Below, piece after piece: positions 8,861 through 15,066 of a stretch of DNA of 64,000 nt (positions are counted from its first letter, which is position 1; every line of letters starts with the position of its first letter). The position numbers were made by a program, and so were the translations under genes. Origin of the DNA: Zeaxanthinibacter enoshimensis. GTDB taxonomy: Bacteria; Bacteroidota; Bacteroidia; Flavobacteriales; Flavobacteriaceae. The notes below the pieces were generated by a model, which searched no databases, had not been told where the DNA came from, and was given only the letters and a program-made list of their open reading frames with translations. The stretch is from NCBI RefSeq assembly GCF_004362865.1, contig NZ_SNYI01000002.1, positions 372,001 to 436,000 of the forward strand, read 5' to 3'.

Positions 8861-9352
8861 ATGAAAACACTAGAAGATTTATTTGAACACCAGTTAAAAG
8901 ACTTATATAGCGCAGAAAACCAGTTGATATCTGCTTTACCTAAAGTAATTGGCCGCGTAAGCGACTCAAAACTTAAAAAAGCAATAGAGGATCACCTGGA
9001 GGAAACCAAGGAACAGAAAAAACGCTTACAGGAGGTATGTGAAGATCTCGATATTTCACCCAGTGGTGAGAAATGTAAAGCGATGGAAGGCCTGATTAAG
9101 GAGGCTGATGAGTTTTTGGAAGAAGCAACCGATTCAGATGTGGTAGATGCCGGTATTATCGCCAATGCCCAGCGCATTGAACATTATGAGATCTCCGGTT
9201 ACGGAACGGCAGTCCGGTATGCCAAAGAACTTGGGCATATAGAAATTGCACGTGTATTACAGACCACCCTGGACGAGGAATATGCTGCGGATAATAAGCT
9301 GGATGACCTGGCGGAAAACAGGCTGAATCAAAAGGCCATGGATCACTCTTAG
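8861..9352 (+). CDS. Ferritin-like YciE/YciF family protein (DUF892)
   Basis: Belongs to the YciE/YciF ferritin-like family of stress-induced four-helix proteins. Typical features are the N-terminus TLEDLFEHQLKDLYSAENQL, then EDHLEETKEQKKRLQEV and the later helix IANAQRIEHYEISGYGTAVRYA; the repeated Glu and His residues on helices are the likely di-iron ligands. The length (163 aa) is usual. The biochemical role of the family is poorly known; in enterobacteria it responds to osmotic and general stress. It lies 142 bases after the copper-storage gene and is followed by a strong terminator at 9374. Its leader ends with a weaker version of the CTTAAA motif seen before its neighbours. Confidence 0.88.
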   Translation: MKTLEDLFEHQLKDLYSAENQLISALPKVIGRVSDSKLKKAIEDHLEETKEQKKRLQEVCEDLDISPSGEKCKAMEGLIKEADEFLEEATDSDVVDAGIIANAQRIEHYEISGYGTAVRYAKELGHIEIARVLQTTLDEEYAADNKLDDLAENRLNQKAMDHS

Positions 9353-9373
9353 GAGTGAAATAAAGGAGAAAAG

Positions 9374-9428
9374 ACCTTAAACCTGTTGTAGGATAGCGTA
9401 CTGTTATCCCGGGTTTAAGGTTTTTTTT
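9374..9428 (+). terminator. Intrinsic terminator after the ferritin-like gene
   Basis: ACCTTAAACC (9374-9383) pairs perfectly with GGTTTAAGGT (9412-9421) and a run of eight T follows. The intervening 28 bases are long for a terminator loop and may fold further. Confidence 0.8.
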
Positions 9429-9545
9429 AGCTATAACGCATTAATACTTAAGACAATGTTAATCTTCTAAATGAGCTAAAAATGCAGAGGTAATGGATTA
9501 CTTTCTGCGTAGATTAAATCCTACTTTAGAATTGATTATCATATG

Positions 9546-9561
9546 TATTATTAACCTTAAA
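9546..9561 (+). promoter_or_regulatory. Leader motif shared with the copper-storage gene
   Basis: TATTATTAACCTTAAA occurs here, 9 bases before the csbD ATG, and identically at 8378-8393, 10 bases before the copper-storage ATG. A shorter relative (AACTTAAA, 8844-8851) precedes the ferritin-like gene. It could be a promoter element for a stress sigma factor or a translation-control site. Confidence 0.45.
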
Positions 9562-9570
9562 TCTACAGCT

Positions 9571-9756
9571 ATGAATGATGAGCAATTAAAAGGGAAATGG
9601 AACCAGCTGAAAGGAAAGCTAAAACAGAAATATGGCAACCTTACAGATGATGACCTTACCTATTCCGAAGGGCGATTCGACGAGATGTTCGGCCGGATCC
9701 AGGAAAAAACCGGGAAAAGGAAGGATGAACTGAAAAGGGAACTTGAAAGCTATTAG
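9571..9756 (+). CDS. CsbD family stress protein
   Basis: A small (61 aa), highly charged cytoplasmic protein of the CsbD family, whose members are among the most abundant general-stress proteins but have no defined activity. The N-terminus NDEQLKGKWNQLKGKLKQKYG and the following LTDDDL...EGRFDEMFGRIQEKTGKRKDE pattern are diagnostic. I chose the ATG at 9571 because the in-frame upstream sequence from 9493 codes for a hydrophobic, non-conserved extension and contains the leader motif. The gene is followed by a strong GC-rich terminator. Expression is likely stress-induced together with the copper-storage and ferritin-like genes, by inference from the shared leader. Confidence 0.88.
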   Translation: MNDEQLKGKWNQLKGKLKQKYGNLTDDDLTYSEGRFDEMFGRIQEKTGKRKDELKRELESY

Positions 9757-9785
9757 AACCCAAATTCCTGAATTCAGTTGATAGG

Positions 9786-9823
9786 GACCGCCCTCCATGT
9801 GAATGGGGGGCGGTCTTTTTTTT
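9786..9823 (+). terminator. Intrinsic terminator after csbD
   Basis: GACCGCCC (9786-9793) pairs with GGGCGGTC (9808-9815), followed by nine T (9815-9823). Confidence 0.88.
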
Positions 9824-9865
9824 GCGGTGCGGAGGACCAATATACAGGAGATGGAGTCTATAATA

Positions 9866-12526
9866 TTAGTTATATTGCTCTTCTTCTTCCTGCTTCCTTC
9901 CTTTTAACGGGGCACCATTGGTCGATGTGGTAAACGGAAGGTAAATTTGGAAACTGGAGCCTTCTCCCTCTTTTCCAAACGCCTGTATGTATCCCCTGTG
10001 ATTCTCAACGATCTTCTTACAAATGGCCAGCCCGATACCTGTTCCTTTATATTCCGGCTGGTAGTGCAGTCGCTGGAAAATTTCAAAGATTCGGTCTGCA
10101 TTCTCCTGTTTAAACCCTATCCCGTTATCCTCTACTGTAATCAGGTAATATTTACGTGCAAGTTTCGTGAAGGCGGCATTAATGGACTCTCGCCTTACAA
10201 GTTCTGATCGTACAACCACCTGCGGTTTCCTATCCGGAGAACGGTATTTGATAGCATTGGAGATCAGGTTATTGAATAATTGCTCCATCTGGAAAGGTAC
10301 CGCCTGTACGGAAGGAAGAGAGTCGTCGACTTCCAGTTGCATGCCCGACTCTTTGATCTGTACACTCAGGTTATCCTGGATATTCTCCATCACCTTATTC
10401 AGATCAACCTCTTCAATTTTTTCAATTGCACTGTCTATCCTGGAGTACGTAAGCAGGTTCTTTATAAGGGTTTGCATCCTATCTGCTGCCTGGGTGATCT
10501 TCTCAAAATAGTTCTGGCTTCTCTTGGACACACCGTCCAGGTCGTTGATCCGGGAGATGAACATCTGGATCTTCCGTAGGGGTTCCTGCAGGTCATGGCT
10601 GGCCACCCTGTTGAATGATTCCAGTTCAGCATTACTTCTCTTCAGTTCCCGGTTACGGTTTATGAGGTTCCTCTCTGATTTAATTTGTTTGGTAACATCC
10701 TGGGCGACCCCGATCATTACCGGGTCTTTTTTGGAATGCATGAACTGGCCAAAAATCTTGAGATATTTAATATTTCCCTGGTTCGTCACTACCCGGAAAG
10801 TGTGTTCAAGGGATTGTAAAGAGCTGATGGCTTTTTCTGCCTTAGCTTTAAAGATCGCTTTATCTTCCGAATGGACGATATTCATAAAACTATCTATCGT
10901 AGGGTCTACCGAACCCACTTCCCGGTCAAGTAGATGATAAAAGTTATCCGATATTCTCAGGGTATCCTGGGACACATCCCAGATATAACTTCCAATTTTT
11001 GCCATTCCTTCAGCATTGGAAAGGATGGAATTCTGGATCTGCAGTTCCTCATTGAGGTGGAGGAGATGTTTTTCGGCCTCCTTTATATGGGTAATGTTAC
11101 TGGCAGTTGCTGTCAGCCTGTTATTGATTGGTTGCAAGGTTGTTCGAAACCACAGGTCTTTGTTTTGATAAACATATTTACGTTCTATTACCTCCTTCTG
11201 CTGCGTATTTATACAATTGAGCATTACTTCAAATGATCCACTCTCAATAGTCATGGGATAGACTTCAGAAACCAATTTACCAATAACCTCCTGGGCTGTA
11301 AAATCGATATAGTTAGAGATGTTTTCTGTGACGTATAATATCCTGAAGTCGATAACCTTCCCCTGCTCGTCGTAGACCGCTTCATAGTGATTGATGGTGT
11401 TGTCTGTACTTTCCAGGATAACTTTCAGCAACTTCCGGGTATCGTCCAGGTCCTTATTCCTTTCTTTCAGTTCCTGGTTTAGCCGGATAAGTTTTTCTTC
11501 CGAATTTTTTTCTTCCGTACTGTTCCTTGCAATGATCAATAACCCGTTGGATAGGGGACGAACCACACTGGCAAACCACATTTTTTTACCGTTAGCGGCT
11601 ATTTGCCGGTCAAATGCAATTCTCTTCTGTTCTTTAAAACTATTGATCAGTTCATCCAATTCGCCATTGAGCAGTAAAAAAGGAAATATTTTAGAAACTT
11701 CTTTCCCTATCATACTTTCAGGAGCCATCCCCATGTGTGTCTTGTTACTGTCGTTGGCAAAGACCACACGGAAATCATGAATCCGGCCATCCCTGTCATA
11801 GATAGGCTCATAATAATTTATGATGTTATCGGTATTCTTTAAAATGCTTTGCAGGAATGTTTCTGCCCGGATAATACTTTTTCGGTCTTCATCGATGATC
11901 TTAAAGAAAATAATAAAGACGATCAGGGAAAAAATTGCCAGTAAGAGCGAGGTGAGATGGGTGATAAAACTTTGGGATTGATAAGCAGAAAGACGCTCCT
12001 GTAAAAGAGATTCTTTTTTTAAAACCAACTTGATTTTAAGTTGTCGAAGTTTATGAAGGAGGCTGTCTGCTGTCCTGACCTCTTGCAAAATTTCCCTGTC
12101 CTGGGAATTGAATGCAGGCAACTGGCTGTTGATCTTGGTCAGGGAAGCATGTAATTTATCTTTTATAACTGTCACAGAGTCCAGAGTTCTTTGATTTTCC
12201 GGTACTGTTTCTGTCAACTGGTATAGCTTCTTCAGGGAAGATTCACTCTGTTGCCTGTAGTCCTCATAAGATAATTGGAATGATGAGTCTCTGACGATCA
12301 CGGAACGGAATTGTGCGGATTCCATGATGTTATACATTGAGAAGAGATTATTGATCTCTTTATCTACCTGGAATGAGAGGGAGACCAAATCTGCCGATCG
12401 TTGTAAATTCTTGATCTGCCGAAAAGTTATGCCTGCTATAAGTAACAAGAGCACTACGGCAATTGCGACGCCTAACCGGAATGGTGCGCGCCTGGTTCTT
12501 GTATTTTCAGAATTACTGAGGTTCAT
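9866..12526 (-). CDS. Membrane-bound PAS sensor histidine kinase
   Basis: A sensor kinase with two membrane segments (about residues 19-39 and 190-213) enclosing a roughly 150-residue periplasmic helical domain like CHASE3-type sensors. Cytoplasmic PAS domains follow: two similar units starting near 225 and 355, each containing 'INYYE' or 'INHYE', and a third near 510-620. The HisKA dimerisation domain has the phosphorylation site His644 in ASHDLQEPLRK, the phytochrome-like H-box common in Bacteroidota. The ATPase domain shows N box NLISNAIKYRS, G1 EDNGIGF and G2 GTGIGLAI. There is no receiver domain and no response-regulator gene nearby, so it is an orphan kinase. The signal is unknown. Confidence 0.9.
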   Translation of the reverse strand: MNLSNSENTRTRRAPFRLGVAIAVVLLLLIAGITFRQIKNLQRSADLVSLSFQVDKEINNLFSMYNIMESAQFRSVIVRDSSFQLSYEDYRQQSESSLKKLYQLTETVPENQRTLDSVTVIKDKLHASLTKINSQLPAFNSQDREILQEVRTADSLLHKLRQLKIKLVLKKESLLQERLSAYQSQSFITHLTSLLLAIFSLIVFIIFFKIIDEDRKSIIRAETFLQSILKNTDNIINYYEPIYDRDGRIHDFRVVFANDSNKTHMGMAPESMIGKEVSKIFPFLLLNGELDELINSFKEQKRIAFDRQIAANGKKMWFASVVRPLSNGLLIIARNSTEEKNSEEKLIRLNQELKERNKDLDDTRKLLKVILESTDNTINHYEAVYDEQGKVIDFRILYVTENISNYIDFTAQEVIGKLVSEVYPMTIESGSFEVMLNCINTQQKEVIERKYVYQNKDLWFRTTLQPINNRLTATASNITHIKEAEKHLLHLNEELQIQNSILSNAEGMAKIGSYIWDVSQDTLRISDNFYHLLDREVGSVDPTIDSFMNIVHSEDKAIFKAKAEKAISSLQSLEHTFRVVTNQGNIKYLKIFGQFMHSKKDPVMIGVAQDVTKQIKSERNLINRNRELKRSNAELESFNRVASHDLQEPLRKIQMFISRINDLDGVSKRSQNYFEKITQAADRMQTLIKNLLTYSRIDSAIEKIEEVDLNKVMENIQDNLSVQIKESGMQLEVDDSLPSVQAVPFQMEQLFNNLISNAIKYRSPDRKPQVVVRSELVRRESINAAFTKLARKYYLITVEDNGIGFKQENADRIFEIFQRLHYQPEYKGTGIGLAICKKIVENHRGYIQAFGKEGEGSSFQIYLPFTTSTNGAPLKGRKQEEEEQYN

Positions 12527-13125: not shown

Positions 13126-13584
13126 ATGAACGAATTAATTAATGCGGAGAACGGACTGGATCTTTTAGATTTTGGTTTACGAATTGCTGCAGCCATGGCG
13201 GCGGGAATAATCATGGGAGTAGAACGAGAGTTCAAAGGGAAGAGTGCAGGTTTAAAGACCCAGACCCTGGTAGCCATTGGGGCTGCGGTATTTGTATTTA
13301 TCTCGCTTGTATTTGCAGACGCACCTAATGTAGACATTACGAGGGTACTGAGCCAGGTCATCATCGGGATAGGCTTTCTGGGAGGCGGAGTCATTCTTCA
13401 GAAGGGAGACAGGGTAGAAGGACTGACCACTGCGGCAACAGTTTGGTGTAGTGCGGCAGCAGGCTGTCTTTCCGCAGTTGGCATGTTCGCCGAGCTGGCG
13501 TTACTAACTGTAGTTGTTCTGGTTATCAATGTCATTTTCGATATTGTAGATCGGCGGATCGAAGAGAAGACCGATGAAGATTAG
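13126..13584 (+). CDS. MgtC/SapB family membrane protein
   Basis: An integral membrane protein with about four hydrophobic segments. The MgtC signature is clear: LRIAAAMAAGIIMGVEREFKGKSAGLKTQTLVAIGAA, followed by QVIIGIGFLGGGVILQ and GLTTAATVWCSAAAGCLSAVG. Family members help cells survive low magnesium or other stress and in some cases modulate the F1Fo ATPase; which applies here is unknown. At 152 aa it corresponds to the short form that has only the membrane domain, without the C-terminal ACT-like domain of Salmonella MgtC. It lies just upstream of the array of three small RNAs. Confidence 0.88.
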   Translation: MNELINAENGLDLLDFGLRIAAAMAAGIIMGVEREFKGKSAGLKTQTLVAIGAAVFVFISLVFADAPNVDITRVLSQVIIGIGFLGGGVILQKGDRVEGLTTAATVWCSAAAGCLSAVGMFAELALLTVVVLVINVIFDIVDRRIEEKTDED

Positions 13585-13690
13585 AAGAAAAGTGGACGAA
13601 AAATAATAAGTTAGTTATATCGTAACCTATCCTTATGTCATATGATCAATTTATTGTTTTTTAAAACACTTCCGGAGGGCTGAATAAGCA

Positions 13691-13698
13691 TACATTTG
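13691..13698 (+). promoter_or_regulatory. -7 promoter element of small RNA copy 1
   Basis: TACATTTG matches the Bacteroidota TAnnTTTG element exactly and lies five bases before the conserved start of the RNA unit. No clear -33 TTTG is visible. Confidence 0.65.
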
Positions 13699-13702
13699 TG
13701 GT

Positions 13703-13783
13703 ATCATAAGTAAGTAAAACAGTTCAGACTTTGAATTGTTAGTATATAAAAAAGAGAGCGTGGGGACGCTCTCTTTTTCTTTT
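13703..13783 (+). ncRNA. Small structured RNA, copy 1 of 3
   Basis: Unit of about 81 bases: conserved leader ATCATAAGTAAGTAAA; stem 1 AACAGTTC (13718-13725) with GAATTGTT (13733-13740), eight pairs including one G-U, around a 7-base loop; linker AGTATATAAAAA; then a terminator with stem AAGAGAGCGT / ACGCTCTCTT (13752-13775) on a GGGG loop, and a T-rich tail. It has its own -7 element and no usable reading frame. The same architecture recurs at 13923 and 14098. The RNA ends are estimates. It may belong to a flavobacterial RNA family already in Rfam (for example the one named Flavo-1), which I cannot check. Confidence 0.7.
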
Positions 13784-13910
13784 CAGGGTGGCTGTATAGT
13801 ATTTTAGAATCCGCCCAATCGGAAATTGAAATATTTTGAATACTGTACCTTCCCTTTTCATCTCGTCAATTTTCTATTTTATTACACACATCGGCCGGCA
13901 TTAACAGCCC

Positions 13911-13918
13911 TATATTTG
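13911..13918 (+). promoter_or_regulatory. -7 promoter element of small RNA copy 2
   Basis: TATATTTG, a perfect TAnnTTTG, at the same distance from the conserved RNA start as in copy 1 (exactly 220 bases downstream of the copy 1 element). Confidence 0.7.
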
Positions 13919-13922
13919 TGCC

Positions 13923-14003
13923 ATCATAAGTAAGTAAAACAATTCAATTCTGGATTGTTAGTATATAAAAAAGAGAGCGTGGGGACGCTCTCTTTTTCTT
14001 TTT
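13923..14003 (+). ncRNA. Small structured RNA, copy 2 of 3
   Basis: Same layout and length as copy 1. The leader ATCATAAGTAAGTAAA, the linker AGTATATAAAAAAG and the terminator hairpin are identical to copy 1, whereas stem 1 has changed with pairing kept: AACAATTC (13938-13945) with GGATTGTT (13952-13959) around a 6-base loop. An A-U pair stands where copy 1 has G-U, and a U-G pair where copy 1 has U-A. The sequence between the two units is unrelated, so selection appears to act on the RNA unit rather than on the whole segment. Confidence 0.72.
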
Positions 14004-14097
14004 GGGATAATTACCCATTTATTGTGTAATTATTTTATTGTGTTATTTTTTTTCTCTAAAAGAGCACATCTTCGGATTATTTGTCATATTTTTACTA

Positions 14098-14188
14098 CTC
14101 ATAAGTAAGTGAAAAACAAACCGGGTTCATGCCCGAGTTTGTAAGTACATAAAAAAAGAGAGCGTGGGGACGCTCTCTTTTTCTTTTT
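14098..14188 (+). ncRNA. Small structured RNA, copy 3 of 3 (diverged, longer stem 1)
   Basis: Leader CTCATAAGTAAGTGAAA matches the other copies. Stem 1 is replaced by a longer helix: ACAAAC-CGGG (14116-14125) with CCCG-A-GTTTGT (14132-14142), ten pairs with one bulged A, around loop TTCATG. The linker is AAGTACATAAAAA and the terminator (14153-14182) keeps the same stem and GGGG loop. The -7 element is weaker (TATTTTTA, 14087-14094). Because the hairpin is flanked by A and T runs on both sides, it can also end tesB transcription arriving on the minus strand. Confidence 0.68.
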
Positions 14189-14202: not shown

Positions 14203-15066
14203 TTAGGCTGTTCCAATACGCATGAGTCCTTCCTGGGCCACCGACGCAACAAGTTCACCTTCTTTTGTAAAAATGCTACCGCGTGCAAACCCTCTCGCAT
14301 TAGATGCGCTGGGACTATCCATGGAGTACAGCAGCCATTCATCTATTTTAAAATCCCTGTGAAACCAGATAGAATGATCCAGGCTGGCAAAGAACGATCT
14401 TTTATTTCTGAGCTCTTCCCGATGAGGTAGGGAAGCCGTGAATAATAAATTATAGTCCGAGACGTAAGCCAGGATCTGTTGTTGCATTGGCAGATCAAGG
14501 TCAATCTTCTCTTTAGTGCACATCCACAGATTACTATACGGATCACTGTTGCTCATCAGTTTAGTAGTCAGTTTTTCCACGGACCTGAACTCGAATATTT
14601 CGGGCAAGGTAAGCTTCAGTCTTTTATAATATTCAGGATTAGATTCACGTACATCTTCCAACTGCTCGGTATTCGAGGCCAGCATGGAAGGTAATAATAC
14701 ATTTGGCATTGTGATCTGGTGGTCTGCCCCTGCTTCCCTGACCTGGAAAGAAGCGGCCATGTTGAATATCGCTTTTCCCTTTTGTTTAGCCACCACTCGC
14801 CTCGTAGTAAAACTACCCCCGTTGCGAATGGTATCTACCTCGTAAACAATGGGGATATCCAGATCACCTCCGAGGATAAAATAGGCATGCAGGGAATGGG
14901 CATAACGATCTGGAGGAACTGTCTGGTAAGCAGCATGCAGTGCCTGCGCAAGCACCTGCCCTCCGAATACCCTTCCCCAGGGGGCCTGGTAATTTTCACC
15001 TTTAAAGACGAATTCGTCCAATCGCTCCAGGGTCAGTAACGAGATTAAGGAATCAATGGTTTGCAT
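14203..15066 (-). CDS. tesB: Acyl-CoA thioesterase II
   Basis: Hydrolyses acyl-CoA to free fatty acid and CoA; double hot-dog fold. Family segments visible are ENYQAPWGRVFGGQVLAQAL near the N-terminus, HSLHAYFILGGD, the RNGGSFTTRRVVAKQKGKAIF block of the first hot-dog, and the second domain ending in DHSIWFHRDFKIDEWLLY, SARGFARGSIF-like NARGFARGSIFTKEGELVAS. The length (287 aa) equals E. coli TesB. It stands alone, converging on the small RNA array, and its stop lies 15 bases beyond the terminator of RNA copy 3, which it likely shares. Confidence 0.92.
   Translation of the reverse strand: MQTIDSLISLLTLERLDEFVFKGENYQAPWGRVFGGQVLAQALHAAYQTVPPDRYAHSLHAYFILGGDLDIPIVYEVDTIRNGGSFTTRRVVAKQKGKAIFNMAASFQVREAGADHQITMPNVLLPSMLASNTEQLEDVRESNPEYYKRLKLTLPEIFEFRSVEKLTTKLMSNSDPYSNLWMCTKEKIDLDLPMQQQILAYVSDYNLLFTASLPHREELRNKRSFFASLDHSIWFHRDFKIDEWLLYSMDSPSASNARGFARGSIFTKEGELVASVAQEGLMRIGTA

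Follow-up and report, generated by a model that had tools for sequence, protein, structure and literature searches.

Tandem units between mgtC and tesB in Zeaxanthinibacter enoshimensis are candidate members of a multicopy small RNA family of the Flavobacteriaceae

The copies of the LhrC small RNAs (sRNAs) are arranged in tandem, and the Qrr sRNAs, which depend on Hfq and are mostly dispersed, exist in several copies that have separate promoters and hardly differ in their core. The Qrr sRNAs are those of Vibrio, named in the available text on FopS of Bacteroides (PMC11697453); the same text describes a single-stranded 5' seed with which FopS represses susC-like mRNAs close to their start codons, 14 FopS copies in B. 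thetaiotaomicron, and high conservation of FopS within the Bacteroidaceae, plus one phage. The five copies of LhrC1-5 in Listeria monocytogenes, of 111-114 nt, act additively through repeated pairing motifs, and their C-rich UCCC motifs pair with Shine-Dalgarno sequences (as far as described in PMC6794450). For the Flavobacteriaceae, the accessible text of PMC9723704 describes the Flavo-1 RNA as widespread, and Rfp18 of Flavobacterium psychrophilum as a conserved sRNA with a strong predicted fold whose deletion lowers two metalloprotease mRNAs. The units described here lie in a window of 64,000 nucleotides, the whole stretch of Zeaxanthinibacter enoshimensis DNA that was analysed. Their family resembles FopS and GibS in belonging to the same phylum, in its many paralogues and in its canonical phylum-type promoters (on the partial text of PMC11697453), but it has a stem 1 and a G-rich element in addition, and its copies are in tandem. 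In contrast to the C-rich motifs of LhrC, those of this family are G-rich, and no sign of homology was seen with LhrC or with Qrr, which comes from a different phylum.

In the window, an MgtC-family gene and a convergent acyl-CoA thioesterase gene flank three head-to-tail sRNA units of 81, 81 and 91 nt. The features are as follows, the stems and terminators being predicted folds.
13126..13584, plus strand: MgtC-family protein, upstream neighbour, given for context (Pfam PF02308, E 2e-32)
13691..13698, plus strand: -7 promoter box TACATTTG of unit 1 (sequence, TAnnTTTG consensus, spacing in relatives)
13703..13783, plus strand: sRNA unit 1, predicted +1 at 13703, 5' end AUCAUAAGUAAGU
13718-13726/13732-13740, plus strand: stem 1 of unit 1, then linker
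13749-13761/13766-13778, plus strand: terminator of unit 1, GGGG loop at 13762-13765
13911..13918, plus strand: -7 promoter box TATATTTG of unit 2 (sequence, spacing in relatives)
13923..14003, plus strand: sRNA unit 2, predicted +1 at 13923
13938-13946/13951-13959, plus strand: stem 1 of unit 2
13968-13980/13985-13997, plus strand: terminator of unit 2, GGGG loop at 13981-13984
14087..14094, plus strand: -7 promoter box TATTTTTA of unit 3, of the less usual TTTA form (sequence, spacing in relatives)
14098..14188, plus strand: sRNA unit 3, predicted +1 near 14099
14116-14126/14131-14142, plus strand: stem 1 of unit 3, longer and with one bulge
14153-14165/14170-14182, plus strand: terminator of unit 3, GGGG loop at 14166-14169
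14203..15066, minus strand: acyl-CoA thioesterase II, TesB-like, downstream convergent neighbour, given for context (TIGR00189, E 9e-82, under the curated cut-off; Pfam PF02551)

The first-pass annotation had placed three units here with a common leader, linker and identical GGGG-loop terminator hairpin, and all of these were confirmed. The 5' end CAUAAGUAAGU is common to the three units, each of which opens with CATAAGTAAGT[A/G]AAA and matches the pattern CAT[AG]AGTA[AG]G. Stem 1 has 9-11 pairs and is followed by a short A-rich linker; the 13-pair terminator hairpin, its GGGG loop and the T run after it are identical in units 1-3, so that the G-rich element of the window units is the GGGG of the terminator loop in 3/3. 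Two main hairpins are predicted for each unit, and the predicted folds were better than 200/200 dinucleotide shuffles per unit (z of -5.69, -6.55 and -6.33 for units 1, 2 and 3). The claim that the units lack a reading frame was also borne out, since no ORF of at least 60 aa lies over them on either strand, and a TAnnTTT[GA] box precedes each of the three, in agreement with the -7 element reported for each one. The DNA between the units, described at first as unrelated, is mostly so, but some letters just upstream of the promoters are common. When the whole genome was searched with a model built from the window units (R1), the three units were found (E 4e-16 to 3e-11), with no further copy of the window type. 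The six weaker matches (E 0.012 to 9.4) were the reverse strand of the window hairpins in three cases, an ordinary terminator (L031), the reverse strand of a second array (L034), and L035 (E 9.35), which was not inspected. Two other weak model matches in this genome, L223:19471-19553 and L221:6728-6809, both on the minus strand, are ordinary terminators behind genes.

A covariance-model search of other genomes, as the first-pass annotation had suggested, brought out relatives in other genera. They were reached with iterated models, R1 and R2, the second of which contains the window units, and the named hosts, apart from Zeaxanthinibacter, belong to Zobellia, Pricia, Euzebyella and Pareuzebyella. 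R2 gave a match in 36/397 genomes, and 22 of these were accepted after sequence inspection. Another nine were rejected or doubted, nearly all as terminator-only, including the ambiguous L045, in which ATAAGTA and a run of G are preserved; the remaining five (G068, G076, G080, G128 and G190) were not inspected. Since few candidates were scored per genome in the large searches, the genome counts are lower bounds. Two model matches outside the family were terminators. With a model from which the genus was excluded (R3, 12 relatives), the window units were the top matches in the 64 kb, with E-values of 3.9e-11, 1.5e-10 and 4.7e-9 for units 1, 2 and 3; these were followed by three matches to the opposite strand of their hairpins (E 9e-5 to 0.02), and then by E 0.3.

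We distinguished four unit layouts, named here types A to D, all with CATAAGTAGGT, or a close variant, as their 5' end. Type A, that of the window units, consists of stem 1 and then a terminator with a GGGG loop, and type B of stem 1, a single-stranded ATCAAATTTGGGG and then another terminator; ATCAAATTTGGGG is constant at the type B loci L100-L103, L108, L109, L112, L113 and L120-L122. In type C, a 5' stretch CCATA[G/A]CATAAGTAGGTTAAGTT[C/T]ATGG is followed by GATTTGGG and a terminator. Fold predictions often turn this stretch into a 28-nt hairpin whose apical loop contains GUAGG, though not in the first unit of L176 or in L273-L275. Type D (L059, L065, L075-L077 and L124) has two hairpins, each with a GUGGGG loop. 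A pattern search matched 69/397 genomes, against 17 with the reversed control, and placed type B in 31/397; 11 inspected pattern matches (L096-L099, L104-L107, L111, L119 and L123) were unlike the family and were set aside, and about as many further single matches were not inspected. The neighbours of the relatives vary, with Peptidase_M3/NT5C at the Zobellia type A locus and an asparaginase gene preceding 3/4 of the tested type B loci. L075, of type D, adjoins a BLUF photoreceptor gene. In a different genus, L074:971-1655 (G237) holds a further tandem type A-like group with UAGGGGU loops, in which two units have AAGTAAG leaders and the middle one an altered leader, between genes for a GFO/IDH/MocA-type protein and a histidine kinase. 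L273, L274 and L275 contain type C units with altered core letters (CATTACATAAG, CATAACATTAG), changes that would be useful for a covariation test of the predicted 5' hairpin.

The flavobacterial sigma-A -7 consensus is TAnnTTTG, at -12 to -5 (as given in the accessible text of PMC9723704). A TAnnTTT[GA] box was present within 26 nt upstream in 103/163 distinct units and in 4/163 in a control stretch; these units (110 of type C, 42 of type A or other, 11 of type B) form an uneven and mutually related sample, and the -7 box played no part in finding them. The box was at the usual distance for the unit type in 89 of the 103. It preceded 26/42 units of type A or other, 20 of these with 5 nt before CATAAG, 11/11 of type B, all at 5 nt, and 66/110 of type C, 58 at 11-12 nt. 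The strict box is absent in 60/163 units and is thus not universal, and a generic sigma-70 scan was uninformative for these promoters. This spacing puts the conserved 5' end no more than a few nucleotides from the predicted transcript start. The same evidence bears on whether the units are mere multiplied terminators or insulators between the convergent mgtC and tesB, with no RNA product. Identical strong terminators between convergent genes would fit that explanation, and terminators on their own are enough to satisfy the models: 14/36 matched genomes were not accepted (nine inspected, five not). Against it, the conserved 5' end coincides with the predicted +1 or lies close to it and has a promoter box at a typical spacing, an insulator would hardly need three successive promoters ahead of three terminators, and the relatives lie in different gene contexts; we regard it as very improbable. 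The window units are almost certainly genes for functional noncoding RNAs.

The first-pass annotation had taken the differences in stem 1 among the copies as compensatory changes, and such covariation as evidence of a functional RNA. Pairing is indeed kept, but copies 1 and 2 differ at two pairs of stem 1 by a change on one side each (G-U to A-U and U-A to U-G), so nothing is compensated between them, and stem 1 of copy 3 is too divergent to be aligned with theirs. The terminators of the three copies, being identical, cannot covary. The stem-1 differences in the window alone would therefore not prove selection. Evidence from covariation, weak inside the window, was found in the comparison of copy 3 with its orthologue and in the relatives. 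In G002, a genome of the same genus, the same mgtC-tesB gap holds two units, which match copies 1 and 3, and copy 3 differs from its orthologue (L022) by one true double change, CGGG/CCCG to CGGA/TCCG, that is, G-C to A-U. Two other genomes of the genus yielded no window-type unit: G003, which has one weak terminator-like match (E 0.525) and carries the other, type C array, and G001, which is 68% complete. The mgtC-tesB placement was thus seen in two genomes only, our own and one of the same genus.

Among the relatives, 17 distinct type A terminators aligned on GGGG had 99.4% of cells paired, compared with 70.1% in shuffles, and 54 double-change cells, compared with 15.9 +/- 3.6 (0/2000 shuffles as high). 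Weaker measures gave 9 double-change pairs vs 6.8 (95/2000 as high) and 20 pair types vs 18.6 (591/2000 as high). The 17 rows derive from 23/39 relatives, two window units and one of L022; seven near-identical Zobellia or Pricia copies were left out, as were nine whose loop had five bases, whose leader was unusual or whose status was doubtful (L045, L059, L065, L073, L074:1223 and L075-L078). The constancy of the loop in this alignment is by construction, since it was centred on GGGG, and that of GGGG in type A relatives is not independent, since GGGG is part of the type A search models. The other prediction, that stem 1 would stay paired in homologues, could be assessed in type B, where 23 distinct sequences were 93.0% paired, compared with 78.4% when shuffled. 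Their covariation score was 0.455 vs 0.218 (0/500 as high), and all six slid versions scored far lower. Five pairs had a double change, a count that was not unusual (307/500 as high). The structure was taken from the fold of one type B member and the shuffles ignore relatedness, so these covariation figures are to be read as indications and not as probabilities.

Five further units, of type C and with a near-identical core of ~40 nt, form a second array in the genome of the window, on the minus strand between a purF-like and a superoxide dismutase gene.
G000:C1 858583-859536, minus strand: cores of the type C array
L156 (G000:C1:857000-861500), minus strand: type C units at 2532, 2251, 2038, 1802 and 1598
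859636-861540: purF-like gene beside the array, named from G002 orthologues
857798-858466: superoxide dismutase gene beside the array, named from G002 orthologues

The G002 orthologues that provided the gene names are 81-97% identical. Outside this gene pair lie pfkB-family and RecB/AddA-like genes. Searching for the complement of the 5' end gave 3-6 clustered matches, ~155-430 bp apart, in 10/10 genomes, and the same ORF lengths and strands were observed at the type C locus in 12/12 genomes, chosen for having arrays; protein families were checked for some genes at four loci (L239, L241, L242 and L250). The layout is not universal, as G017 has two core matches 219 kb apart. On reading, each of the first, middle and last type C units has a signature of its own that recurs throughout the genera compared. 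The 20-nt core of the array, CATARCATAAGTAGGTTAAG, was found with at most two mismatches in 198/259 family genomes, representing 181/235 genera, with two or more matches in 161 of these genomes and 483 matches in total; the reversed-core control was found in 10/259. Outside the family, the core occurred in 1/96 genomes of other families of the order (G699, two mismatches; not inspected) and in 1/106 genomes elsewhere in the class (G421, two mismatches), a match that on inspection as L277 was without the unit layout. Because type C units were mostly found by the 5' core alone, the G-rich element is best judged in this type: TTTGGG followed the core in 100/100 distinct units counted, as TTTGGGG in 84.

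This distribution also bears on the idea that the units are mobile or REP-like repeats. Several copies separated by mostly unrelated DNA would be consistent with such repeats, but in our own genome the copies found are grouped into two head-to-tail arrays, and the ORF layout around the five-unit array is the same in the 12/12 chosen genomes. The type C array also had no match among plasmid records and only a weak 41-nt match among phage records (Salmonella phage Sepoy, two records), while the window array had none among phage records. We consider this origin extremely improbable.

The window units do not have the type C sequence CCATAGCATAAGTAGGTTAAGTT[CT]ATGG followed by TTTGGG; they keep only CATAAGTA and GT of the type C core, with A in place of the G between, which makes them paralogous relatives and not type C members. 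R3, a type A model, matched all five type C units weakly (E 6e-4 to 0.03), the weakest match ranking just below an ordinary terminator (E 0.025). These matches and the common 5' end support, but do not prove, a common descent of the two arrays. We consider it probable that the window array is a diverged tandem branch, present in two genomes of one genus, of a multicopy sRNA family that extends throughout the Flavobacteriaceae and acts by base pairing in trans with mRNAs. The tandem sRNA family proposed in the first-pass annotation is supported by homology, covariation, promoter spacing and synteny, but it is not tied to the mgtC-tesB gap.

An Rfam search of the window, also suggested at first, returned only a tRNA at threshold and no match to the units, and that of 26 loci (24 relatives and the chance loci L098 and L123) only a TPP riboswitch, in L059. 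Flavo-1, which had been put forward as a possible identity of the units and is likewise a structured RNA of Flavobacteriaceae, gave no match at threshold in the window or the relatives scanned, and no other Rfam family accounted for them there. Unit 3 scored 18.9 bits with GibS (E 4.3), vs a gathering cut-off of 115, and other sub-threshold matches (MicX, STnc40, His leader, trpB motif and others) were hairpin look-alikes far under the cut-off. In the open literature, no report of the family was found among the titles and abstract starts of the matches listed; supplements, most subscription journals and preprints were outside the scope. The family thus appears to be undescribed as a family, multicopy tandem sRNAs as a kind being already known.

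A member could already have been seen as an Rfp transcript of F. psychrophilum, possibly Rfp18, Rfp11, Rfp13 or Rfp15, a reading that is compatible with the others and that we consider quite possible, if somewhat short of likely. The accessible text of PMC9723704 reports 85 new independent transcripts, with Rfp11, Rfp13, Rfp15 and Rfp18 conserved in other species, and the presence of the core in 181/235 sampled genera makes its presence in Flavobacterium likely. Rfp18 is, like the family, a conserved flavobacterial sRNA with a strong predicted fold, a likeness by description only; it is described with three stem-loops, however, whereas the window units fold into two, again a comparison of descriptions that leaves its boundaries aside, and the main text of that source uses 'tandem' only for proteases and leucine-rich-repeat proteins (PMC9723704). 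If this identification were true, only the family view would be new.

Homology, conservation, covariation, promoter spacing and synteny are computed results; transcription, base pairing and any target are inferences. In the mechanism we favour, each unit would be transcribed from its own sigma-A-type promoter into a noncoding RNA of ~81-91 nt, ended by its own intrinsic terminator. The constant parts would be the 5' end of the transcript (CAUAAGUA[A/G]GU) and the G-rich element (GGG or GGGG), placed in the terminator loop in the window and in the loop of a second hairpin or a single-stranded linker in relatives; the stems would vary in sequence and yet stay paired. The exposed 5' end and the G-rich element may then pair in trans with mRNAs, probably near the translation start, and several copies could provide dose and separate promoters separate control, as in FopS, LhrC and Qrr. 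The exposed constant parts and the free stems, the promoter and terminator of each unit, the high copy number and the variety of neighbours together suggest the anatomy of trans-acting multicopy sRNAs.

Translation initiation in this phylum is not known to be led by Shine-Dalgarno sequences. Around start codons, 7-mers complementary to the type C core showed no excess beyond other 7-mers, in a sample of about a quarter of our own genome (682 genes; best z 1.8, 99th percentile of all 7-mers 3.55) and a sixth of G261 (614 genes; best z 3.1, for CCCCAAA, 99th percentile 3.61). TTAACCT, a core complement, was raised at start codons relative to letter permutations (0/40) but not relative to a second-order Markov expectation, and CCCCAAA, the complement of UUUGGGG, occurred 6 times vs 1.8 expected in G261, with none in the coding control, and 3 times vs 3.5 in our own genome; neither was retained. 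A wide start-codon regulon through perfect 7-mers is thus not supported. The result may be compatible with a small number of targets, with pairing that includes G-U, with target sites elsewhere or with a protein partner.

The last of these corresponds to a different role, in which the RNAs bind protein and not mRNA: the constant 5' end and the GGGG/GUAGG motifs, which often lie in hairpin loops, would recruit or titrate a conserved flavobacterial RNA-binding protein, and each copy would add sites. CsrB/RsmY-like logic is the model for such titration. The negative seed test is consistent with it, as are the motif kept while stems change, the two GUGGGG-loop hairpins of some relatives (the type D loci) and the apical-loop GUAGG predicted in many type C units. 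Against it, the near-constant type C stretch is ~40 nt, whereas a usual protein loop motif is shorter, the partner protein is hypothetical, and most of the units inspected carry one GGGG motif each. We judge protein binding in place of mRNA pairing to be unlikely. A broader proposal, which we put forward tentatively, is that the Flavobacteriaceae carry a family-wide master riboregulator that Rfam does not yet model, in which the near-identical sRNA array beside superoxide dismutase, with its almost invariant GUAGG/UUUGGG core, might control a conserved regulon or titrate an RNA-binding protein, and from which some genera might have bred second arrays with a shifted 5' end for new targets.

The breadth of the family is the surprising part. 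Flavobacteriaceae play an important part in degrading algal polysaccharides, and some are fish pathogens, yet their post-transcriptional control is little charted; with the core in so many genera, one deletion and one RNA-interactome experiment could open a family-shared regulon, and the changing second arrays offer a natural series for the divergence of paralogous sRNAs.

Two observations concern the surroundings of the window array. Upstream of each promoter there is an AT-rich stretch followed by a CACA-like motif (window 13640-13680, 13850-13900 and 14030-14080), partly common to L022, which could be an activator site. Further upstream (window 8861-12526) are genes for DUF892, CsbD-like and multi-PAS histidine kinase proteins, possibly a stress-response neighbourhood.
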